Source of the DNA: Arcicella aurantiaca
GTDB lineage: Bacteria > Bacteroidota > Bacteroidia > Cytophagales > Spirosomataceae
Length of the DNA stretch: 64,000 nt
Direction: 5' to 3'
NCBI RefSeq assembly: GCF_003148625.1
Contig: NZ_QGGO01000009.1
Location: forward strand, 124,001-188,000
The notes below the pieces were generated by a model that was not told where the DNA came from, ran no database searches, and saw only the letters and a list, made by a program, of their open reading frames with translations. Positions 16,046 to 57,816 of the stretch are shown here, piece by piece (the stretch's first letter is position 1; every line of letters begins with the position of its first letter). The translations under genes were made by a program, and so were the position numbers.

Positions 16046-16221
16046 AAATCTGGTTCAAGTGTCCTCGCTAAATCTGGTTCAAGTGTCCTCGCTAAATCTG
16101 GTTCAAGCGTCCTCGCTTGAACCTTTGGAATAATGCCTTAAAACCAATGATTTAACTATTTTAACTATTATCTATATCTTAATAGACGAAAAAAATGTTG
16201 TCAGTGGAGACACTGACAACG
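16046..16221. repeat. Triple 24-bp tandem repeat plus two tetraloop hairpins (unit A)
   Basis: Three copies of a 24-bp unit containing TCTGGTTCAAG(T/C)GTCCTCGC start at 16046, 16070 and 16094. The last runs into a perfect 10-bp hairpin (GGTTCAAGCG, loop TCCT). About 75 bases on is a second perfect 10-bp hairpin at 16197-16220 (GTTGTCAGTG, loop GAGA). The two-hairpin unit with its linker is repeated at 16589-16730. This fills most of the 328-bp gap between the EamA gene and the small membrane gene. Confidence 0.85.
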
Positions 16222-16250
16222 GCAAAAAGGTTATGAAAATAATATTCCCT

Positions 16251-16523
16251 TCAACTTAAATATTGAATCCACGAATAAATAGTCCAAAAGCTCAATAAGC
16301 TAAGAATTGCTGTATTATTAATATCTGCAAAATCTTTTTTACGATACGTCATAATCGCAAAAGCAAGAGTTAGGATTGTTAAAATACCTAAAAAAGCTAT
16401 TTTGTAAATAAATCCCCAATCTGGATTTTTAATCAAATGATTTGGGATAACTTCTGTAATAACTATCATCAAAATAGATATTCCTATCAATTTTGTAAAG
16501 TTAATTTGTGAGATTTTTTGCAT
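16251..16523 (-). CDS. Small membrane protein lying between direct repeats
   Basis: 90 residues from the ATG at 16523 (MQKISQINFTKLIGISILM); the frame reaches further to a TTG at 16544. Three hydrophobic segments are visible: LIGISILMIVITEVIP, IYKIAFLGILTILTLAFAIM and AILSLLSFWTIYSWIQYL. No family is recognised. The gene is bracketed by about 130-bp direct repeats (16100-16231 and 16589-16730), so the gene plus one repeat may behave as a cassette. Confidence 0.55.
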   Translation of the reverse strand: MQKISQINFTKLIGISILMIVITEVIPNHLIKNPDWGFIYKIAFLGILTILTLAFAIMTYRKKDFADINNTAILSLLSFWTIYSWIQYLS

Positions 16524-16588
16524 GATATTACGATTTATACTCAAACAGAATTTGATTTGCGAAAATTTACTTTCAAAAAAAGTGCCTT

Positions 16589-16730
16589 AAATCTGGTTCA
16601 AGCGTCCTCGCTTGAACCTTTGCAAAAGACTAAAGCCTTAAAACCAATGATTTTACTATTTTTACTGTTAACTATATCCTAATAGACGAAAAAAAGTTGT
16701 CAGTGGAGACACTGACAACGGCAAAAAGAT
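16589..16730. repeat. Two-hairpin repeat (unit B), direct copy of 16100-16231
   Basis: Same order as unit A: hairpin with arms GGTTCAAGCG/CGCTTGAACC (16594-16617, loop TCCT), then linker GCCTTAAAACCAATGATTTT with small changes, AATAGACGAAAAAAA, then hairpin GTTGTCAGTG/CACTGACAAC (16696-16719, loop GAGA, a GNRA-type tetraloop) and GGCAAAAAG. Hairpins and the flanking linker are conserved; differences lie mainly in A/T runs. Confidence 0.85.
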
Positions 16731-16746
16731 TTGTTCATATCCACAT

Positions 16747-20941: not shown

Positions 20942-21068
20942 ATGTGTCCACCCTGTCATTGCGAGCGTAGCGAAGCAATCTGTTAGCTTACGAGAAAAGG
21001 ATTTCAAACACCCTTCCATCAATCCAACAGATTGCTTCGCTATGTTCGCAATGACAAGATGGACATCT
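20942..21068. repeat. Long palindromic intergenic element (GCGAAGCAATCT type)
   Basis: Arms TGTCATTGCGAGCG...GCGAAGCAATCTGTT and AACAGATTGCTTCGC...CGCAATGACA pair over about 30 bases, with outer ATGTGTCCACCCTGTCATT/AATGACAAGATGGACATCT extending the stem. Sequences of this kind are widespread as short palindromic repeats in unrelated bacteria. It occupies the 352-bp gap after the metalloprotease gene; the rest of the gap is plain AT-rich DNA and a probable promoter for the next operon. Confidence 0.8.
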
Positions 21069-28284: not shown

Positions 28285-28869
28285 TTAGTTTTTTGTAGCA
28301 AAATCCCTTCTAATTCTACTCAAAGAAGTATCCGTAACGCCCAAATAAGAGGCAATATTTTTCAGAGGAATATTTTGTAGTATTTCTGGATGAGTTTCTA
28401 TTAAATGCGTGTATCGTTGCTCTCCTGTATGCTGAATCATGGATAACATTCTCTGTTTCAGGTTAATACAATTATTAATTAGCATCATTCTGCCAAATTC
28501 TCTGAATTCGGGAATTGTATGGAAATTCTTTTGTAAGTCCTCAAATGATATATAGCAAGTCAAACAATCCGTCATTGTGATTAGACTTTCAGAAGCAGGC
28601 ATTCTTTTGAAAAAGGAAGTAAAGTCGTTAGCAAACATAGAATTACTAAAAATCATCGTTGTTACATCATTTCCGTTGGTATCAAAAGTGTACATCCGTG
28701 CAAAACCATCAATGATAAAGTGCGAAGTATTACAAATTTTCCCTTCTTCAATTAAAAACGTATTCTTGGTAACCTCTTTAATCCTAAAGGTTTCAGCAAT
28801 TTGTGTTGCCTTTTCAGTAGGCATTGGTAAAACTTGTTGGAGGTAATTGATTAGTTTTTCGTGTGGCAT
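28285..28869 (-). CDS. Crp/Fnr family transcriptional regulator
   Basis: 194 residues: a cyclic-nucleotide-binding-like beta-roll at about 20-115 (KEVTKNTFLIEEGKICNTSHFIIDGFARMYTFDTNG) and a C-terminal winged helix (IPLKNIASYLGVTDTSLSRIRRDF). This short Bacteroidota Crp/Fnr type generally lacks the residues that bind cAMP, and its ligand is unknown. Its ATG overlaps the stop codon of the upstream small membrane ORF by one base (TAATG), which implies translational coupling. Downstream is a membrane-protein gene. Confidence 0.9.
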   Translation of the reverse strand: MPHEKLINYLQQVLPMPTEKATQIAETFRIKEVTKNTFLIEEGKICNTSHFIIDGFARMYTFDTNGNDVTTMIFSNSMFANDFTSFFKRMPASESLITMTDCLTCYISFEDLQKNFHTIPEFREFGRMMLINNCINLKQRMLSMIQHTGEQRYTHLIETHPEILQNIPLKNIASYLGVTDTSLSRIRRDFATKN

Positions 28870-29054: not shown

Positions 29055-29137
29055 AATACTAACTAATTTTTTAAGATAGCCTTTAAATTTGATAGCTTCT
29101 TTTTGGTATGGAATGGAAATAATATTTCGGACTTATA

Positions 29138-29276
29138 TACTTATTGACGCAAAACCTCACCCCCGACCCCTCTCCGATGGAGAGGGGAGAAAAATGGAGT
29201 CGAACGCTCCCCTCTCCATCGGAGAGGGGTTGGGGGTGAGGTTTTGTGACTCAAATTTAACTTGCGTCAATAAGTA
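29138..29276. repeat. Palindromic CTCACCCC element, copy 1, with nested outer arms
   Basis: Outer 15-bp arms TACTTATTGACGCAA and TTGCGTCAATAAGTA enclose an inner stem made of AAAACCTCACCCCCGACCCC and its complement GGGGTTGGGGGTGAGGTTTT, with GGAGAGGGGAG in the middle. The inner part is the same family as 48744-48838. It separates the small membrane ORF from the 98-residue gene. Confidence 0.9.
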
Positions 29277-29563
29277 CATATTTCCGTAATATTTTCCAAT
29301 TCTTCGATTAAACCTAAATATTTTTGATGATTTTGAGGGTTTACTTTAACAAAGTATTTTTCATGAGATGGCATTAATTTGAATATCTGATTGACTTTCT
29401 CCATAATATTGATTGAGATTAGTCCTCGATTATTATCTTCTTGAAGAATTTTTAGCGTTTTTTCAAGAGAATCAAACTTGTAGTCTTGTTGGTGTTGAAG
29501 TGTAAAATTGTCCTTAATGATGTCTAATTGATTGATTTGTTTTTCAAATATAGAACGAGCCAT
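29267..29563 (-). CDS. Soluble helical protein of unknown function
   Basis: 98 residues from ATG 29563, no signal or membrane segment. It has a helical look (FEKQINQLDIIKDNFTLQHQQ, LEKTLKILQEDNNRG, KYLGLIEELENITEI). The stop codon lies within the outer arm of the palindromic element, so the natural C-terminus may have been longer. A join with the membrane ORF beyond the element is possible but unproven. The family is not recognised. Confidence 0.45.
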   Translation of the reverse strand: MARSIFEKQINQLDIIKDNFTLQHQQDYKFDSLEKTLKILQEDNNRGLISINIMEKVNQIFKLMPSHEKYFVKVNPQNHQKYLGLIEELENITEICTY

Positions 29564-29664: not shown

Positions 29665-30375
29665 ATGTCAACAACAATAAAAACAGCTTTAATAACGGGC
29701 GGTTCAAAGGGAATTGGTTATGGAGTTGCAGAGGCTTTAATTAAGGACGGAATAAAAGTAGCGATTACTTCTCGCACGCAAGCAAGTGCCAATGAAGCTG
29801 CCGCTGAATTGAATAAAATTAAAGAAGGCTATGCCATCGGGATAGAATCTGATGTTAGAAATTTAGCTTCGCAAGAAAAAGCGGTTAAAACGATTTTGTC
29901 AGCTTGGGGACGTTTGGATTATGTCATTGCTAATGCAGGTGTTGGACATTTTGCTCCGATTCAAGATTTAACTTCTGAGCAATGGCAAGAAACGATTGAC
30001 ATTAATCTAACAGGGACTTTCAATTCTATCAAGGCTTCTTACGAACAATTGAAAGAAACGCAAGGCTATTTTATTACGATTTCGAGTTTGGCAGGAACAA
30101 ATTTCTTTGCGAACGGAGGTGCGTATAATGCGTCAAAATTTGGCGTTGTTGGTTTTACACAAGCAATCATGATGGATTTGCGTAAAGATGGAATTAAGGC
30201 TACGACTATCATGCCAGGTTCGGTGGCAACGTATTTTAATGGACATTCGCCAAGTGCAAAAGATGCGTGGAAAATTCAACCAGAAGATATTGGACAAATT
30301 GTATCTGATTTAATTAAAATGCCAGCTCGTACTTTACCAAGTAAAATTGAAGTTCGTCCAACAATGCCTGCATAA
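29665..30375 (+). CDS. Short-chain dehydrogenase/reductase (SDR)
   Basis: 236 residues, classical SDR. The coenzyme motif TGGSKGIG is at about 11-18, the NAG motif appears in YVIANAGVGHF, the catalytic serine in ISSLAG, and the YxxxK pair at Y154/K158 (AYNASKFG). The TSRTQ following the second strand suggests an arginine that prefers NADP(H). A cytoplasmic NAD(P)-dependent oxidoreductase; its closest text is 3-ketoacyl-ACP-reductase-like, but the substrate is open. It stands alone, and a long palindrome follows the stop codon. Confidence 0.92.
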   Translation: MSTTIKTALITGGSKGIGYGVAEALIKDGIKVAITSRTQASANEAAAELNKIKEGYAIGIESDVRNLASQEKAVKTILSAWGRLDYVIANAGVGHFAPIQDLTSEQWQETIDINLTGTFNSIKASYEQLKETQGYFITISSLAGTNFFANGGAYNASKFGVVGFTQAIMMDLRKDGIKATTIMPGSVATYFNGHSPSAKDAWKIQPEDIGQIVSDLIKMPARTLPSKIEVRPTMPA

Positions 30376-43643: not shown

Positions 43644-46600
43644 TTAAAACTTAAAAGCCTTAACCTTTCCCTGATTCAACCCTAAGAATAGCACATTATT
43701 GATTACTAATCCACTTCTTACATCACCTTTTACGCCTAAAGAAGTATTATAATTGAAGTTCCCTTTTCCATCATTTTTGAAAACAAATCCTTTGTTGGCA
43801 TCATAATTTCCAAATCTTAATCTTGCATGGTGAATGTTTCCTGCTAAAACTAAATCTTTTTTGCCATCATGGTCAAAATCAAGTACACTAATCGTGAAAA
43901 TCGGTGCGTATTGAACTTCTTTTGGTAAAGATTTTTCTTCAAATTTTCCAGAAGAATTTCCTACAAAATACATCGTTTTCAAGTAGTTCGCAGTTAAATG
44001 TCCTGCTTTATCCAATTCTCCATTTTTGAAAATATCCTCAATCGTTGCTTCTGAATAGGTTTTATAATCCGTGAATATTTTTTTGTAAACTGGCGTTTGT
44101 TCCAATAATTCATCACGAGTGAGATACGGATAACTTTTACCTTGAATATATGAACAAAGAATTGGCTCAACCGAACCATTTTCGTCAAAATCTTTGAAAT
44201 AGAGGTCTAAGGGCTGATTTTCTGTAACTTTCAGTTGCGAGTTTTGTCCTAAATTTCCTACAATTAAATCCGCTTTACCATCACCGTTGAAGTCATCAAT
44301 CAATAATTTATTCCAAAGTCCTGAGTAAGTTTTCTCGAAATATTTATCCGTTACATTTTCAAATTGACCTTTTTCAACTTTGAAAACGGTTATTGGCATA
44401 AATTCACCTATAATGATTAACTCATTCTTTTTATCACCGTCCAAATCGTGCCAAGCAGCATCTGTTACCATGCCGATTTGCTTAATTTCTTCGGGCGTTT
44501 GATTGGTAAACTTTCCTTGCCCATTATTGATTAAAACATAACTATTGGGAGCAGTTGGATAACTTCCAATGACAACTCGCCCGCCTACGAATAAATCTAA
44601 TTTCCCATCGCCGTTTGCATCGCCTGCACGTACACAACTCGTACTTGTAAACATTTGCGGTAAAGCTGTTTTATTGAAATTCCCTTTGCCGTCATTTAGA
44701 TAAAGTCGGTCTTGCAGAGCTTTGTCGTTCGCTTGATAATTGCCATATCCGCCGCTACAAACGTATAAATCTAAGAATTTATCACCATTAGCATCGAAGA
44801 AAAGTGCGTCAGTATCGTAGCTTGCTTTGTCAATTTCAAAGGCTTTTTGAACTTGTTTTGTGAAATTACCTGTCTTGTTTTGAAGATAAATTTCTCCTGC
44901 TTGATTGCTTGCTCCGCCCACAAAAATATCTTCTAAACCGTCACCATTTACATCACCTTTTGCCATACAAGGACCTTGGAAAGACATTGGGTTAGTCATT
45001 AACGATTGACGTTTGAAGTCATTAATTGTATCCTTTCTATGCTCAAAAACAAGCGTTTGTATTTCTTGAAAATTACTTTTTGATTCTATATTTTTTGAAG
45101 CACTATTTTTTGCATTTTTCTCCGAAATCGTTAGCGTTTGATTGGCTTTGACAGCTTTTAGCGTTTCGGATTTTCCTGTAAGCCAAACTACTTTTAAAGA
45201 GTCTATTTGCGTGTTTTTACCAAGTCCGAAATGAAGAAAATTAGTAACACTTGATTGATAGCCATGCGTGGGCATTTTTTCTTGAAATTGTATTTTACCC
45301 TGACTATAAACCGTAACTTTTGCTCCAATTCCCTGACGATTCATGCCGTCACCCTCTAATTTCAGTTTGAGGTAATTGTTTTTATTATTCGACTGATTTT
45401 GGTAGATAAAAGCAGGTTGATTTACGTTATTCACAACTAAATCTAAATCGCCATCGTTGTCCAAATCTGCGTAAGCCGCACCGTGACTATTTGAGGTTTG
45501 ATTTGTTCCCCATGAGGTAACTTTGTCGGAAAATGTTAAATCTCCATTATTTCTGAAAAGATAATTGGTTACATTACTCGAAGGCATTTGATTTACCAAT
45601 TCTAAGGCTCTTTCACGGTTCATATTTCCTTGATTTTGAGCCGTAAAATCATTCATGTATTTAATAAAATCAAGATTTGTATAGTCTCTCAAATATCCAT
45701 TGGTGATGTATAAATCTTTCCAACCATCATTATCATAATCGGCAAAAAGGGCAGCCCACGACCAATCTGTATTGGAAATGCCAGCGTATTGTCCTACTTC
45801 GTTAAATAGAAAAGATTTGTCATTTTCAACATTGTTTCCACCATTTATTTGCAACATATTTCGCATATATTGATAGCCAAAACCCACTTGCACATTAAAA
45901 TTGAATTTTTCGTAACTGTCTGTCGCCATTAATAATTTTTGCCGACGATTATCTTCTGGCAACATATCAAGCGTGAAAATATCCATCAGTCCATCATTAT
46001 TCACGTCTGAAACATCATTGCCCATCGAGTACATGGAATTATGCCCCAATTTATCGTTGATTTGATTGATGAAACCACCTTTTTTGTCGTTGATGTACAA
46101 ATAATCAGGCACGGTATAATCGTTTGAAATGTACATATCTTGCCAACCATCTTGGTTAAAATCGGCAATTCCGATGCCCAAACCGTAGGAGAGGGGCGAG
46201 CTTGAAATATGTGCTTGCTTGGTTACGTCTGTAAAATGGGGTTGACCGTCTTTGCCTTTGTCGTGTCTATAAAGGCGAACGCCACTAATTGGGTCTTCAA
46301 TTTTTAAAGTTTCTGTCGTGTTCAAAACATTGAGAACTGGCAATGATTTAATGTTATGATTCAAGAGAAACATATCTAAATCTCCGTCACGGTCATAATC
46401 AAAAAAGGAGGCTTGCGTACTTGTAGAAACATTGTCTAAACCATATTCAGCGGCTTTATCAGCAAATTGTGGAATTCCATTTGCATCATTTCCTTGATTT
46501 ATAAACAGTTGTTTCATTCTGTTTTCAGGACGAACAGCTCCCGAATAACACACGAAAATATCCAATAAACCATCTCCATTTACATCTGCCATTGTAGCCC

Positions 46601-46970
46601 CTGTTTTCCAAGGACCTTCTCGACCTTTTACACCAGAAAGTGCCGAAACGTCTTCAAAAGACATATTTCCTCTGTTCAAATACAGGCGATTGACCTGCAT
46701 ATTTGAAGTAAAATATAAATCTTCAAGTCCATCATTATTGACATCGCCAACTGCTACTCCGCCGCCATTGTAGAAATATTCGTACATCAAAACATTCGTA
46801 TTTAAACCTTCTTGAATAACGTTTTGAAAATCTACGTGTGTTTTTTCGGCAGGAAGTAATTGAAATAATGGCTCAGAACCATCATTTTCTTCTGTTTGAG
46901 TTGATTTTTTACAATTACTCAGCGTGAAGAACAAAGCAATGAAGAGAATATATTGTTTAGAAATTTTCAT
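43644..46970 (-). CDS. CRTAC1-type VCBS/FG-GAP repeat lipoprotein with ASPIC/UnbV domain
   Basis: 1108 residues. Lipoprotein signal MKISKQYILFIALFFTLSNC. Many Ca-binding FG-GAP/VCBS repeats (GDVNNDGLEDLYFTSNMQ, DFNQDGWQDMYISND, DYDNDGWKDLYITNGY, DANGDGKLDLFVGGRV) form two propellers. An ASPIC/UnbV domain lies at about 530-620 (NYLKLKLEGDGMNRQGIGAKVTVYSQGK...FLHFGLGKNTQIDSLKVVW). It is an outer-membrane lipoprotein of unknown role; family members are common beside SusC/SusD genes in Cytophagales. Final gene of the SusC-SusD-haloperoxidase-CRTAC1 cluster, 82 bases after the previous CRTAC1. Confidence 0.9.
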   Translation of the reverse strand: MKISKQYILFIALFFTLSNCKKSTQTEENDGSEPLFQLLPAEKTHVDFQNVIQEGLNTNVLMYEYFYNGGGVAVGDVNNDGLEDLYFTSNMQVNRLYLNRGNMSFEDVSALSGVKGREGPWKTGATMADVNGDGLLDIFVCYSGAVRPENRMKQLFINQGNDANGIPQFADKAAEYGLDNVSTSTQASFFDYDRDGDLDMFLLNHNIKSLPVLNVLNTTETLKIEDPISGVRLYRHDKGKDGQPHFTDVTKQAHISSSPLSYGLGIGIADFNQDGWQDMYISNDYTVPDYLYINDKKGGFINQINDKLGHNSMYSMGNDVSDVNNDGLMDIFTLDMLPEDNRRQKLLMATDSYEKFNFNVQVGFGYQYMRNMLQINGGNNVENDKSFLFNEVGQYAGISNTDWSWAALFADYDNDGWKDLYITNGYLRDYTNLDFIKYMNDFTAQNQGNMNRERALELVNQMPSSNVTNYLFRNNGDLTFSDKVTSWGTNQTSNSHGAAYADLDNDGDLDLVVNNVNQPAFIYQNQSNNKNNYLKLKLEGDGMNRQGIGAKVTVYSQGKIQFQEKMPTHGYQSSVTNFLHFGLGKNTQIDSLKVVWLTGKSETLKAVKANQTLTISEKNAKNSASKNIESKSNFQEIQTLVFEHRKDTINDFKRQSLMTNPMSFQGPCMAKGDVNGDGLEDIFVGGASNQAGEIYLQNKTGNFTKQVQKAFEIDKASYDTDALFFDANGDKFLDLYVCSGGYGNYQANDKALQDRLYLNDGKGNFNKTALPQMFTSTSCVRAGDANGDGKLDLFVGGRVVIGSYPTAPNSYVLINNGQGKFTNQTPEEIKQIGMVTDAAWHDLDGDKKNELIIIGEFMPITVFKVEKGQFENVTDKYFEKTYSGLWNKLLIDDFNGDGKADLIVGNLGQNSQLKVTENQPLDLYFKDFDENGSVEPILCSYIQGKSYPYLTRDELLEQTPVYKKIFTDYKTYSEATIEDIFKNGELDKAGHLTANYLKTMYFVGNSSGKFEEKSLPKEVQYAPIFTISVLDFDHDGKKDLVLAGNIHHARLRFGNYDANKGFVFKNDGKGNFNYNTSLGVKGDVRSGLVINNVLFLGLNQGKVKAFKF

Positions 46971-47052: not shown

Positions 47053-48888
47053 TTACTTTAATGTCCTTTTTTGGAAGAATAAACCTCCACCCAATAAAGC
47101 TACCCCAATAGCAATCCAAGGTATGATTGAACTATTGGTATTTGATTTTTCTTCTGTAATCGTAATCAATTGATTAACTTTTTGATTTTTAAGCGTTTGC
47201 GTATTGCCTCCTGTCCAATGAATAATGATTTCGTCGATTTTGTTAGCATTGCCTAAACCAAAATGTGCATACGGAGCGTTTTGCGATAAATGACTTGAAC
47301 CTCCTCCGTCAATTTCTTGAAAATAATGTTTGCCATTTACGACAATTTCCACCTTTGAACCCAAACCTCTTGTTTCCGCTTCGAGACCTTTCAACGCAAT
47401 TTTAATCCAATTCCCATGTGCCGAATCATTGCGGTACAGATGTGTTTCTGAAACAGTTGGAAAATCTAAAACAGGTTTTTGGTTCACAACCAATAAATCT
47501 AAATCTCCGTCATTATCAATATCCAACGTTACTGAACCACGAGCTATTCCATAATCATTTAAGCCTTTTTCACGTGCTTTGTCAATGAATTTTCCGTTGA
47601 CATTATCGAAAAGATAATCTGCAATGGGCGTACAATTTGGGTTTAAATCTCCGTTGGCTACAAATAAATCAAGGTCGCCATCGTGGTCGAAATCGGCAAA
47701 ATTTGCCCCCCAACTAATCGTCATCATTCCCAATCCCAATTCTTGCGATTTTTCTAAAAAAGGCTTACCAACTCCCTGATTAACCATAAATTTATTGAAA
47801 CGGATATTCGTCACAAAATAGTCCATCAAACCGTCATTGTTATAATCTCCAACGGCAGTTCCCATTGAATTTATTTTCAAATCCATACCCAACTGCGGAG
47901 CCACATCTTTGAAAGAATTCCAAGGCGATTGATTTTCTAATAATAAGTCTGGCGTGCGTTTATAGCCAAAATCATGATTTACAAAAAGGTCTTGGTCGCC
48001 ATCGTTGTCAAAATCTGTAAAAACACCGCCAAAACCGAATCCTTTGTGGCTTAGTCCATAATCTTGATAAACATTTTTGAAGGCTTTTCCTTTTTCATTT
48101 ATCAATAAATATCCTTCCGTAATTTGGTTAGCACTCGCAATCATGGCATCATTTATTGTGCTTAAATCTCCCGGATATTCCGTAAAATAATTTCCTACAT
48201 AAAGGTCTGGAAAACCATCTGCATTAAAATCTCCGAAACACGCTCCTGTGCTGAAAGAATTTAATTTATCTAAGCCAAATTCTTTGGTAACATCTCTAAA
48301 AGTGTTGTTTCCGTTATTTAGATACAATAAATTTATCGCTCTTGGAATCAGTTTTTTTGCACCTTTTGAGGTAATTGTCGTAATGTATAAATCTACAAAT
48401 CCATCACGATTTACATCTGCCGAAACTGCTCCTTGTGTCACAAAATTCTTTGTTCCTGTTAGCCCTGATTTTTGATAAATATTGGTAAATGTTCCGTTTT
48501 TATTGTTCAGATACAGAATATCGTCTGCCATTCCACCTGTTAAAAAAAGGTCGTCGAAGCCATCATTATTAAAGTCAAAAACGCAAGCTCCTCCACCTAA
48601 AAAACCTTCATAGACTTGAAATTGATGTTTAATGCCAGATTCTTTTGTGATGTCTTTAAAAGCAGTTGGTAGGCTGTTTTGGGCGGATAATTCTATATTT
48701 AACGATATTATTAATGATGTTATAAACAGTGATAACTTTAATGAAAACCTCACCCCCAACCCCTCTCCAAAAGAGAGGGGAGTAAAAATGAGGCAAATGC
48801 TCCCCTCTTTATCGGAGAGGGGTTGGGGGTGAGGTTTTTTAAAATTAAACAATAATATTTTTTGTAATAAATTCTCTAAAAATCTCAT
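47053..48888 (-). CDS. CRTAC1-type VCBS repeat protein with a palindromic repeat in its leader
   Basis: 611 residues from ATG 48888. The ATG overlaps the TGA of the haloperoxidase gene (ATGA), which fixes this start. Residues 17-48 are the translation of a palindromic element (PHPQPLSDKEG...PLSFGEGLGVRF); the rest of a leader follows (LKLSLFITSLIISLNIELSAQ). Then FG-GAP repeats (DFNNDGFDDLFLTGGM, DVNRDGFVDLYITT, DFNADGFPDLYVGNY, DYNNDGLMDYFVTN), an ASPIC/UnbV domain (GNWIKIALKGLEAETRGLGSKVEI...YAHFGLGNANKIDEIIIHW) and a C-terminal hydrophobic helix IIPWIAIGVALLGGGLFF with a basic tail. It is probably exported, but the split leader makes this uncertain. Confidence 0.85.
   Translation of the reverse strand: MRFLENLLQKILLFNFKKPHPQPLSDKEGSICLIFTPLSFGEGLGVRFSLKLSLFITSLIISLNIELSAQNSLPTAFKDITKESGIKHQFQVYEGFLGGGACVFDFNNDGFDDLFLTGGMADDILYLNNKNGTFTNIYQKSGLTGTKNFVTQGAVSADVNRDGFVDLYITTITSKGAKKLIPRAINLLYLNNGNNTFRDVTKEFGLDKLNSFSTGACFGDFNADGFPDLYVGNYFTEYPGDLSTINDAMIASANQITEGYLLINEKGKAFKNVYQDYGLSHKGFGFGGVFTDFDNDGDQDLFVNHDFGYKRTPDLLLENQSPWNSFKDVAPQLGMDLKINSMGTAVGDYNNDGLMDYFVTNIRFNKFMVNQGVGKPFLEKSQELGLGMMTISWGANFADFDHDGDLDLFVANGDLNPNCTPIADYLFDNVNGKFIDKAREKGLNDYGIARGSVTLDIDNDGDLDLLVVNQKPVLDFPTVSETHLYRNDSAHGNWIKIALKGLEAETRGLGSKVEIVVNGKHYFQEIDGGGSSHLSQNAPYAHFGLGNANKIDEIIIHWTGGNTQTLKNQKVNQLITITEEKSNTNSSIIPWIAIGVALLGGGLFFQKRTLK
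48744..48838. repeat. Palindromic CTCACCCC element, copy 2, inside a coding region
   Basis: AAAACCTCACCCCCAACCCC ... GGGGTTGGGGGTGAGGTTTT with CTCTCC/GGAGAG inner stems. Same family as the inner part of 29138-29276. Both copies keep an open frame reading PHP(Q/R)PLSD(K/G)EG and PLS(F/I)GEGLGVRF. Confidence 0.92.
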
Positions 48889-50222
48889 TTTTTCCAAATT
48901 AAGTGGTTAATATTTTCGCCTACTTCTTTGCCTTTTTCTAAGCCTCGCTCATTGTCTTGCGGAATGTGAATTCCTCCGTAAAACCGTGAATTAGCTGTTT
49001 CTTGTGCCACTTCCCAAAAGGAATTATAGTTTCGTGCTTTATAATCTACATTTCTGATTTCGTCTTTTTTTCTACCGACATGGGCGTCATCTGTAAAAGT
49101 AAATTTGTCGCCATACATACCCGCTAAAACAGTGGCGGTTGCAGACGCTTGAATGGCGTGTCCGCTCGGAAATGCAGGGAAAGGAGGGTCTGGCCAAAAA
49201 GATTCCCAACGCTGATTTATATGTTGGGTAACATAATTATTAGGGCGTTCGGTAAAGAATTTGTACTTCCATTTCCAACAATTGATAAAAGCATCTGCTA
49301 CTGCTAAACCTACTTTTGCGTAAGTTTCTGTACATTTTATTAAATCTGGTTGAACTTTTTTAATTACCAAAGTTGCCAAATAATAAGAATGCCCCGGAGG
49401 TGTGAAAGTCTCTTCGGGGTCATCACTCCACCAAATAGCGGCTTCTTTTTGAGCTTGCGTGAGCGTTTCCTTTTGTTTCGCAGTTCTCTGAAATTGTTGA
49501 TAGTATTCAGAATTTGGTAAAGTGTCAAACGGAATCACTTTTGGGTCTTGAATCTCATGATTTACTTTTAAAAAAGTTCTGTTTTCGCCCCAATGTGGAT
49601 GCAGAGGATAATGGCTAAACGATTGAGCAAACAAAGGTGGACTCCAAGAACCAGCACGCTGAGGATGAACCATTTTTTTGTCAAAATTCTTTAAATATCC
49701 ACGATGTCCACCATCAGTTTTTGACCATTCAAAAATGGAATTTGCTATGGATTTTCCAAAAGTTACAGACCGCTCAATTAATGCTTTATCTTGAATGTTT
49801 TGTGTGTAGTACTCAAAAATAACGTTTTCCAAAGAATCTATTTTGAGTTTATTTTTATCGGAAGTTTGATTATAAATATTTTTTAAAACAGTAGCTTGAG
49901 CAGCATTTAAAGATAATTTCCAATCATATTTTTTGTTTTTTTCTGGTTTGGGAAGACTGTCTAATCCATTTAATTGTCCTGATAGAGATTGATAGTTTGG
50001 ATAAGCATTCACCACAGATTCATACATTGTCAAACCAATATATCCCAAGCATCTTGATGAATAAGTGGGCGAGTTTGAGGGCGTATTTTTGGTAATATAG
50101 AGCGTCATATCCGCCCATTTAGTGGTTAATTCTTGGTCAGATATGGGCTTTGTGGATTCACAACTGAGAAAAAGTACGATAAGAAAAAGTGGAAATAATA
50201 TAAGCAGTAATTTTATTCTCAT
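48885..50222 (-). CDS. Vanadium-dependent haloperoxidase (PAP2 superfamily) lipoprotein
   Basis: 445 residues. Lipoprotein signal MRIKLLLILFPLFLIVLFLSC. Vanadate-binding motifs are complete: KYKFFTERP with Lys and Arg near 320, FPSGHA near 353, and SRFYGGIHIPQDNERG with the key His at about 419. Known members use H2O2 and vanadate to oxidise halides or act as related phosphatases. It should sit in the periplasm or on the surface. It shares an ATGA overlap with the following CRTAC1 gene; a terminator-like hairpin lies between it and SusD, so it may have its own promoter. Confidence 0.92.
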   Translation of the reverse strand: MRIKLLLILFPLFLIVLFLSCESTKPISDQELTTKWADMTLYITKNTPSNSPTYSSRCLGYIGLTMYESVVNAYPNYQSLSGQLNGLDSLPKPEKNKKYDWKLSLNAAQATVLKNIYNQTSDKNKLKIDSLENVIFEYYTQNIQDKALIERSVTFGKSIANSIFEWSKTDGGHRGYLKNFDKKMVHPQRAGSWSPPLFAQSFSHYPLHPHWGENRTFLKVNHEIQDPKVIPFDTLPNSEYYQQFQRTAKQKETLTQAQKEAAIWWSDDPEETFTPPGHSYYLATLVIKKVQPDLIKCTETYAKVGLAVADAFINCWKWKYKFFTERPNNYVTQHINQRWESFWPDPPFPAFPSGHAIQASATATVLAGMYGDKFTFTDDAHVGRKKDEIRNVDYKARNYNSFWEVAQETANSRFYGGIHIPQDNERGLEKGKEVGENINHLIWKK

Positions 50223-56506: not shown

Positions 56507-57556
56507 ATGAAAAAATATATTTGCCTTGCAATTTCACTTGCATTTTTTGGTTCTGAAAGTTTAGCTCAAAAATCAAAAAATCGCATACAGTTAATTACAA
56601 AATCTAAAGAAAATAAAGTAGAAGTAATGGTTGATAACAAACCTTTTACGTCCTATTTTTTTCCAAGTGATTCGATACTGAAAAAGCCAGTCCTTTTTCC
56701 AATTGTAACCTCTCAAGGAACAACCATAACTCGTGGTTATCCATTTGCTACTCGTGCAGGAGAAAGAGTTGACCACCCTCACCATGTTGGAATGTGGTTA
56801 AATTATGAATCTGTAAACGGTTTTGACTTCTGGAATAATTCAACGGCTATTAAAGACCGTTCAAAGTATGGAACAATCAAACACACAGGCATTACAAAGT
56901 CAAGCAGTGGCGTTGGCAAAGCTGATTTGGAAGTAACGGCTGACTGGATTGATACTGATGGAAAAGGCAAAACTTTGTTGAAAGAGAAAACGAAGTATGT
57001 ATTCTATGCGAATGGAAATCAAAGAATTATTGATAGAATCACAACTTTGACGGCTCAAAATGATGAAGTGCTTTTTAAAGATGTTAAAGATGGTGTCTTT
57101 GCCATTAGATTAGCTCGTGAATTGGAACATCCATCTGATAAACCAGATATTTTTGTGGATGCAAACGGTATTGAAACTAAAGTTGATAAATTAGACAATA
57201 CAGGAATCACAGGGAAATATCATAGCAGTGAAGGAATCAACGGCGAAGACGTTTGGAGTACACGTGGAAAATGGGTGAATTTGACAGGTAAAATCAAAAA
57301 TGAAGATATTTCTGTTGCCATCATCGACCATCCATCAAATGTTAATTATCCAACTTTTTGGCACGCTCGTGGATATGGTTTATTTGCTGCTAATCCTTTA
57401 GGAGAAAAAATATTTAGCAAAGAGAAAAAAGAATTGAATTACAAACTTGCCCCAAATCAATCTGTCACTTTTAGATACAGAACTGTTATTACTTCTGGTA
57501 CTGCTTCTGATGAAAAATTGAACAAATTAGCAGCAGAATTTGCAGCAAGTAAGTAG
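56507..57556 (+). CDS. DUF6807/PmoA-like family exported protein
   Basis: 349 residues from the ATG at 56507, which starts signal peptide MKKYICLAISLAFFGSESLAQ. Family text: VEVMVDNKPFTSYFFPSDSILKKPVLFPIVTSQGTTITRGYP, then ERVDHPHHVGMWLNYESVNGFDFWNN and ISVAIIDHPSNVNYPTFWHARGYGLFAANPLG. These match the protein family named PmoA or DUF6807 in databases, exported proteins common in Bacteroidota and Planctomycetes and frequently near sugar genes. The methane-oxygenase name is not meaningful here. The His-rich loop DHPHH may bind metal or sugar; this is inference. Confidence 0.8.
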   Translation: MKKYICLAISLAFFGSESLAQKSKNRIQLITKSKENKVEVMVDNKPFTSYFFPSDSILKKPVLFPIVTSQGTTITRGYPFATRAGERVDHPHHVGMWLNYESVNGFDFWNNSTAIKDRSKYGTIKHTGITKSSSGVGKADLEVTADWIDTDGKGKTLLKEKTKYVFYANGNQRIIDRITTLTAQNDEVLFKDVKDGVFAIRLARELEHPSDKPDIFVDANGIETKVDKLDNTGITGKYHSSEGINGEDVWSTRGKWVNLTGKIKNEDISVAIIDHPSNVNYPTFWHARGYGLFAANPLGEKIFSKEKKELNYKLAPNQSVTFRYRTVITSGTASDEKLNKLAAEFAASK

Positions 57557-57559
57557 TTG

Positions 57560-57765
57560 TTGGTTACTGGTTGATTGGTTACTGGTTATTAGTTGATTGG
57601 TTACTGGTAGATTGGTTATTGGTAGATTGGTTATTAGTTGATTGGTTACTGGTAGATTGGTTATTGGTTGATTTGGAATAAAATCAATTTACCAATAACC
57701 AATCTACCAATTCACCAATAACCAATTCACCAATAACCAATAACCAATAACCAATAACCAATTAA
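57560..57765. repeat. Tandem 15-bp repeat forming a giant hairpin
   Basis: Left half (57560-57675): about eight degenerate copies of TTGGTTACTGGTTGA (variants TTGGTTATTGGTAGA and similar). Right half (about 57690-57765): the complementary text in units such as ACCAATAACCAATCTACCAA and CCAATAACCAATTCACCAAT. The two halves can pair in many registers. It lies between the stop of the DUF6807 gene and the CAP gene. Confidence 0.9.
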
Positions 57766-57816
57766 CAAAAATAAACTAAAAAGGTACTTTATGCGTTTAA
57801 TCTGAAAATTAACCGT

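Follow-up and report, generated by a model that had tools for sequence, protein, structure and literature searches.

Palindromic repeats that lie in frame within protein-coding genes are already known from Rickettsia (2000) and from the GTAG/CGTC REPs (PMC2229807, PMC10969869, PMC3733652). The Rickettsia palindromic elements (RPEs; Ogata et al. 2000, via PMC10969869, PMC2229807) comprise palindromes of about 100-150 nt that are found both in intergenic regions and in frame in conserved genes, and no endonuclease partner for them is reported in PMC10969869 or PMC2229807. The palindromes of the GTAG/CGTC REPs sometimes lie within ORFs, including those of tRNA synthetases and recBCD genes, and for the CGTC repeats no transposase is reported (PMC3733652). 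An enzyme that spreads coding palindromes is named in none of PMC2229807, PMC10969869 and PMC3733652. VsrA of Caulobacter, which contains a DUF559 domain, is described in PMC12907096 as a methylase-linked enzyme of the Vsr-like repair type and not as a mobile element.

In this work, a palindromic element of Arcicella aurantiaca is analyzed, starting from a window of 64,000 nt, the whole stretch of DNA under study. The reading that we favor, and consider fairly probable, is that a short MITE-like element sits in the leader of a CRTAC1-like gene, where it is read in frame, and that larger relatives carrying a DUF559 domain drive the spread of the family. The earlier note on this DNA missed that these palindromes are also associated with a DUF559 endonuclease, itself inserted in frame.

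Results

A palindromic element in the leader of a CRTAC1-like gene

The features of the locus and of the second copy in the window are as follows.

48744..48840, no strand assigned: palindromic element of 97 nt, codons 17-48 of the minus-strand CRTAC1-like gene
48744..48782 (+): left arm of the element, AAAACCTCACCCCCAACCCCTCTCC..., with the outer stem at 48744-48770 and the inner stem at 48774-48782, from the fold
48800..48838 (+): right arm of the element, with the inner stem at 48800-48808 and the outer stem at 48812-48838, from the fold
48751..48753 (-): in-frame GTG, codon 46, at the end of the element; a putative rival start that would give VRFSLKLSLFITSLIISLNIELSAQ
47053..48888 (-): host gene, CRTAC1-like, with FG-GAP repeats and a UnbV_ASPIC domain, 611 aa (Pfam)
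48885..50222 (-): upstream gene of the PAP2 / vanadium-haloperoxidase type, overlapping the host start via ATGA (Pfam)
29151..29245, no strand assigned: second copy of the element, intergenic, inside an outer inverted repeat TACTTATTGACGC...GCGTCAATAAGTA
Leader peptide expected if the element is coding: KKPHPQPLSDKEG...

The element is a near-perfect palindrome with inverted-repeat ends and, at 97 nt, is about as long as the RPEs (about 100-150 nt). Its RNA folds into a single long hairpin with a 27-bp outer and a 9-bp inner stem (-72.7 kcal/mol; z = -11.6), a fold energy reached by none of 200 shuffles. The translation of the ORF at 47053-48888 (-) runs through the element as MRFLENLLQKILLFNF-KKPHPQPLSDKEGSICLIFTPLSFGEGLGVRF-SLKLSLFITSLIISLNIELSAQNS, and the host ATG shares 4 bases with the haloperoxidase-type gene (48885-48888). 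The translation, together with the 87% identity between the copies at 29151-29245 and 48744-48840, confirms what the earlier note had reported, a palindrome in codons 17-48 with a second copy in the window. The note had also observed that both copies keep the same open frame; the second copy lies between the ORFs 28285-28869 and 29665-30375, so its open frame is no sign of coding. Directly downstream of the host gene, at 43644-46970, the window encodes a second, longer CRTAC1-like protein (1108 aa), and in G005 the orthologue likewise has a similar gene behind it.

G005 (contig JAAFIU010000092, a Cytophagales MAG of the same genus) provides the closest CRTAC1 orthologue among the genomes compared. 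From residue 53 onward, this orthologue is 91% identical; it has no element, and its start lies at the same ATGA overlap (MRFLKNMFQRIVLISSVLTIFSNVKLLAQNS). Its first 11 residues (MRFLKNMFQRI) align with MRFLENLLQKI of the window, and the upstream gene shares 84% nucleotide identity over its final 300 nt. An AAATGAG overlap start is also found in the orthologues of G021, G026, G032 and G055, and GTGAG in that of G042, while others start further downstream. Since the G005 orthologue begins at the same ATGA without the element, the latter is a real in-frame insertion within an ancestral leader, and the placement of the element inside the translated region, for which the earlier note had proposed such an orthologue comparison, is supported; the outcome that the note had named as refuting it, orthologues that all begin beyond the element, was not obtained. 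With the insertion, the leader gained 41 residues. The note further expected the insertion to split the signal peptide, but the h-region LSLFITSLIIS (mean KD 2.24 over 11 residues) and the SAQ cleavage region are intact downstream of the element. No target-site duplication was evident at the three inspected sites (CRTAC1, AddB and IleRS).

Translation through the element from the upstream ATG is likely, and the GTG at codon 46 is a possible new start. The strongest alternative, unlikely in our estimate but the one that deserves most weight, builds on this codon: the element would be effectively 5' untranslated and would supply a new GTG (48753-48751) or TTG start for a short signal peptide, VRFSLKLSLFITSLIISLNIELSAQ. 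An in-frame GTG and TTG do lie at the end of the element with a purine-rich stretch before them, the shortened leader keeps the same hydrophobic core, and a survey considered many N-terminal GTAG/CGTC repeats in ORFs to be probably non-coding (PMC3733652); against this, orthologues conserve the start at the upstream ATGA, the alignment with the empty-site orthologue extends over the first 11 residues, and in a TamL-type leader of G005 the GTG of the element is replaced by GTA, yet the upstream frame is open.

Element copies in the genome and in conserved proteins

Copies in the genome of the window were counted by sequence search, which gives a lower bound of at least 22 places; further copies occur in relatives. 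Four copies lie firmly within genes, namely those for CRTAC1, a penicillin-amidase family protein (PF01804, L020), an AddB-like protein (L234/L238) and a GT9 glycosyltransferase (L207), in which a partial copy falls within the Pfam match. Another two copies probably represent insertions into leaders (TamL-type L010 and lipoprotein-type L206), and the remaining copies, the majority, appear intergenic. Apparent leader copies in L152 (primase-like), L007/L019 (rubisco-like), L016 (glycosyltransferase) and L011 (SusC-type), all named from sequence, were set aside as probably lying just upstream of the true start.

The element is used in all three phases, as PHPxPLS..GEGxGVR, LTPxPSPxERG..GGEV and TSPPxPL, and a phase preference, for which the earlier note had proposed a test, was therefore rejected. 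A special openness of the frames was likewise rejected: 106 full-length copies have on average 3.13 open frames of 6, and dinucleotide shuffles have 3.16, so the openness is merely an effect of composition.

About 12 of the 19 full-length copies of this genome are enclosed by an outer inverted repeat, CGGAAGTATGTACTTAATGTCGC...GCGACATTAAGTATATACTTCCG, which forms a second palindromic layer (window 29128-29285; L002-L006, L008-L010, L012, L013, L015 and L016) and is absent from the CRTAC1 and acylase copies. In L015 and L016 (around 1485-1610), a 12-nt module, GTGCGACGGTCG / CGACCGTCGCAC, is present within one or both palindrome arms, symmetrically in L016, and related modules are present in the acylase and AddB copies. 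The window contains other repeats as well: a separate palindrome family, GTCATTGCGAGCGTAGCGAAGCAATC, at 20945-21065, with 45-nt arms that are 87% complementary; two diverged copies of a block of ~100 nt, 500 nt apart, each terminated by a hairpin, GTTGTCAGTGGAGACACTGACAAC, at 16128-16731; and tandem 15-mers of the TTGGTTACTGG type facing inverted copies at 57546-57770.

In the penicillin acylase, the element occupies residues about 185-215, directly before the GSNGF motif, and the beta subunit (N-terminal Ser) of solved acylases starts at query residue 228, which places the insertion in the alpha-beta spacer. This spacer carries an in-frame element in four species (G000, G005, G035 and G006) and is empty in G007, G002, G001, G034, G013, G008 and others. 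Additional in-frame copies in relatives were found in PBP1C (within the transpeptidase match), NirB, heparinase II/III, lipoprotein leaders and a helicase-type protein, the last with two copies.

Palindromes and in-frame DUF559 domains in close genomes

Within the AddB-like insertion of this genome, a DUF559 domain (PF04480, E about 1e-34) lies between the palindromes. Six close genomes were searched by the DUF559 family, not by the palindrome. The search found four domains (AddB in G000, G006 and G035; IleRS in G006), and every one of them is surrounded by palindromes and in frame with a host of 1199-1324 aa. The AddB of G005 has no insert, despite 95-96% host identity. The only IleRS match in G006 bears the insert, between positions that correspond to chain residues 485 and 486 of a solved IleRS, and IleRS is empty in G035 (96-98% identical) and in G000, G001, G002, G005 and G007. 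The IleRS proteins of G006 (L294) and G035 (L295), which belong to different genera, are thus 96-98% identical, with a DUF559 insert in one of them; a recent horizontal exchange of the host gene is suggested by these sequences. Between species, the N-terminal part of the AddB host is 71-86% identical and its DUF559 domain 64-68%.

In the IleRS form, the palindrome arms directly enclose the domain (CCTCACCCCCAACCCCTCTCC...DUF559...GGAGAGGGGCTGGGGGTGAGG), and over its first 21 nt the left arm is identical to the CRTAC1 copy; since the arms are common to both, the short palindrome is read as a gene-less relative of the larger form. From the palindrome to the domain, the AddB copy of this genome has no in-frame ATG, GTG or TTG (read by eye), and the IleRS copy contains an ATG. 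In G005, G002 and G001, two of which are incomplete assemblies, palindromes are present and no DUF559 was detected.

The association was examined at 34 DUF559 loci for GC-rich hairpins with a stem of >=8 within 260 nt of the domain. Such hairpins flank the domain on both sides at 22 loci and on at least one side at 28 (one side only at 6, none at 6), and the hairpin type differs between loci (CCCCTCTCC.., CCCCCTTT..). Hairpins were found in 50/68 flank windows vs 5/124 control windows from other parts of these loci (Fisher p about 5e-25), and on both sides of 0/17 RAYT (Y1_Tnp) loci (p about 4e-6 vs DUF559); related loci were treated as independent, so these p values overstate certainty.

The comparison with RAYT bears on a second alternative, by which a RAYT (Y1_Tnp) would move the element as it does other repeats of the REP type, and the link to DUF559 would be incidental. 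Short GC-rich palindromes with sub-hairpins would suit such a repeat, and RAYT-type genes are present in these genomes; but the element core words are found within 1.5 kb of Y1_Tnp at 0/20 loci, two-sided hairpins are missing from the 17 Y1_Tnp loci, and the element has no GTAG or CGTC tag. A RAYT partner was rejected as the main idea on account of the core words and the hairpins, and we regard it as improbable.

Slightly less probable still is a regulatory role of the hairpin, as a terminator or in mRNA stability or attenuation of the downstream gene, with the in-frame position coincidental. The RNA hairpin is very stable and the copies are mostly intergenic, as this would predict, but a terminator scan of the element finds none, no Rfam family matches at gathering score (weak matches to eukaryotic miRNAs reflect the long hairpin alone), and the frame is kept mid-way through conserved proteins of great length, in which termination would do harm. 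An assembly artefact, with repeats misjoined in a draft of 70 contigs that contains a dispersed repeat, is very improbable, as no other copy exceeds 91% identity to the CRTAC1 copy, the gene order on both sides agrees with the orthologous contig, and the element is shorter than the usual read.

DUF559 insertions across Bacteroidota and beyond

PF04480 was found in 222 of 395 sampled Bacteroidota genomes, and among 30 loci taken from the top-scoring matches the domain is embedded within its host at 15. In five genomes (L251, L253, L259, L261 and L269), it interrupts MetH in frame, in the linker that joins the cap domain to the B12-binding domain; the insert of L261 falls between 9ssp residues 753 and 770. 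In-frame insertions in LeuRS (L244, L247 and L268) come from three genera and occupy a similar site, before or in the editing region, with recognisable palindromes in some and not in others. Further hosts include HsdR (three) and DNA methylase/specificity proteins, and at one locus the domain is fused C-terminally to a PurQ-type domain. Ten of the hosts were checked by Pfam and NCBIfam, and the other host names come from sequence.

Sites are thus shared across lineages in the MetH linker (five genomes), LeuRS (three genera) and AddB (three species), and they are empty elsewhere, for AddB in close relatives. Recurrent sites in different genera combined with empty sites form the pattern that would be expected from homing, although vertical descent with losses may be the source of the recurrent sites. 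The xDF...ExDG..H catalytic-type motif (RQ, DF, ExDG and H positions) is conserved in 34 DUF559 domains, and the domain is therefore probably active. Outside Bacteroidota, hairpins around DUF559 are patchier: among 12 plasmid loci (Cyanobacteria, Deinococcus and Proteobacteria), they were found at 9, and on both sides at only 3.

Ten hosts were scanned against Pfam and NCBIfam, and no intein splicing domain appears among their matches; the scan of the IleRS and AddB hosts (L236, L238) was by NCBIfam, and AddB L234 was also scanned by Pfam. No Rfam match to a group I or II intron reached gathering score in 11 loci. An earlier description of the element or of in-frame DUF559 elements was not found in the open-access literature, outside which most subscription journals lie; the 14 papers there that name DUF559 deal, by their titles and abstracts, with other topics.

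Discussion

Under the favored explanation, the CRTAC1 gene would still be translated from its original ATG, and 32 residues encoded by the element would separate the signal-peptide core from the first 16 residues and be lost with the signal peptide. The surviving genic copies would be those that keep the frame in disposable or flexible sites, such as signal-peptide n-regions, the excised acylase spacer and interdomain linkers. In the larger members of the family, the same palindromes flank or enclose a Vsr-like DUF559 domain that is in frame and has no stop of its own. DUF559 may be the mobility enzyme of the palindromes, as their association suggests; it could spread the element by hairpin processing or by cutting targets whose repair uses the element as template, and the short palindromes would be derivatives or templates mobilised in trans.

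A broader reading is more tentative, and we hold it with slightly more doubt than belief: Bacteroidota would harbor a class of selfish elements, neither inteins nor introns, in which a palindrome-bounded DUF559 homes in frame, the insert stays part of conserved, even essential hosts (IleRS, LeuRS and MetH), and the short palindromes are gene-less offshoots like MITEs or REPs.

The association with DUF559 makes the question of the spreading enzyme testable with one purified protein and, if true, would hint at the type of enzyme behind Rickettsia-type coding palindromes. In-frame DUF559 in the single-copy IleRS, and likewise in LeuRS and MetH, would demonstrate that an essential enzyme is able to bear a permanent, unspliced endonuclease passenger. 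In annotation, PHPxPLSxGEG/GEGLGVR peptides and DUF559 fusions should be treated with caution, as they are often probably mobile DNA and not functional domains of the host.

Several known systems share features with these elements. VsrA has the same Pfam domain and is of the PD-(D/E)XK type. Like inteins, the DUF559 inserts bring an endonuclease domain in frame into recurrent sites of conserved, often essential proteins, but no splicing domain is detected by Pfam or NCBIfam, and the inserts, located in linkers, would remain part of the protein. The ShiLan insertion in a phage methylase (PMC11855218) is likewise neither intein nor intron and brings in an endonuclease without closing the frame of the host, whereas its HNH endonuclease is encoded in another frame, between a start and a stop of its own, and DUF559 is in frame and bounded by palindromes; it may be regarded as a distant parallel. 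With MITEs (PMC10969869), the short element shares its length, its inverted-repeat ends and arms common to a larger gene-carrying form (the IleRS insert of G006), and differs in that the larger form encodes an endonuclease-like domain instead of a classical transposase; a target-site duplication was not evident at the sites inspected. A nuclease gene flanked by palindromes recalls REPtrons, in which the enzyme is a RAYT; no RAYT is flanked by the element and the enzyme here is DUF559, and the copies examined in the element's own genome lack the unpaired GTAG or CGTC tag of the GTAG/CGTC REPs.

The closest likeness is to the RPEs, to which the earlier note had compared the element: the size of the palindrome, the intergenic and in-frame genic copies and the host proteins that are apparently still made all agree, and the behavior, with many in-frame copies in conserved genes, bears the comparison out. 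It does not extend to origin, as the element belongs to Bacteroidota (closest named relatives Cytophagales/Bacteroidota) and not to Rickettsiales, probably differs in sequence, is used in three phases and has a candidate endonuclease partner. The element works like an RPE but is no RPE.
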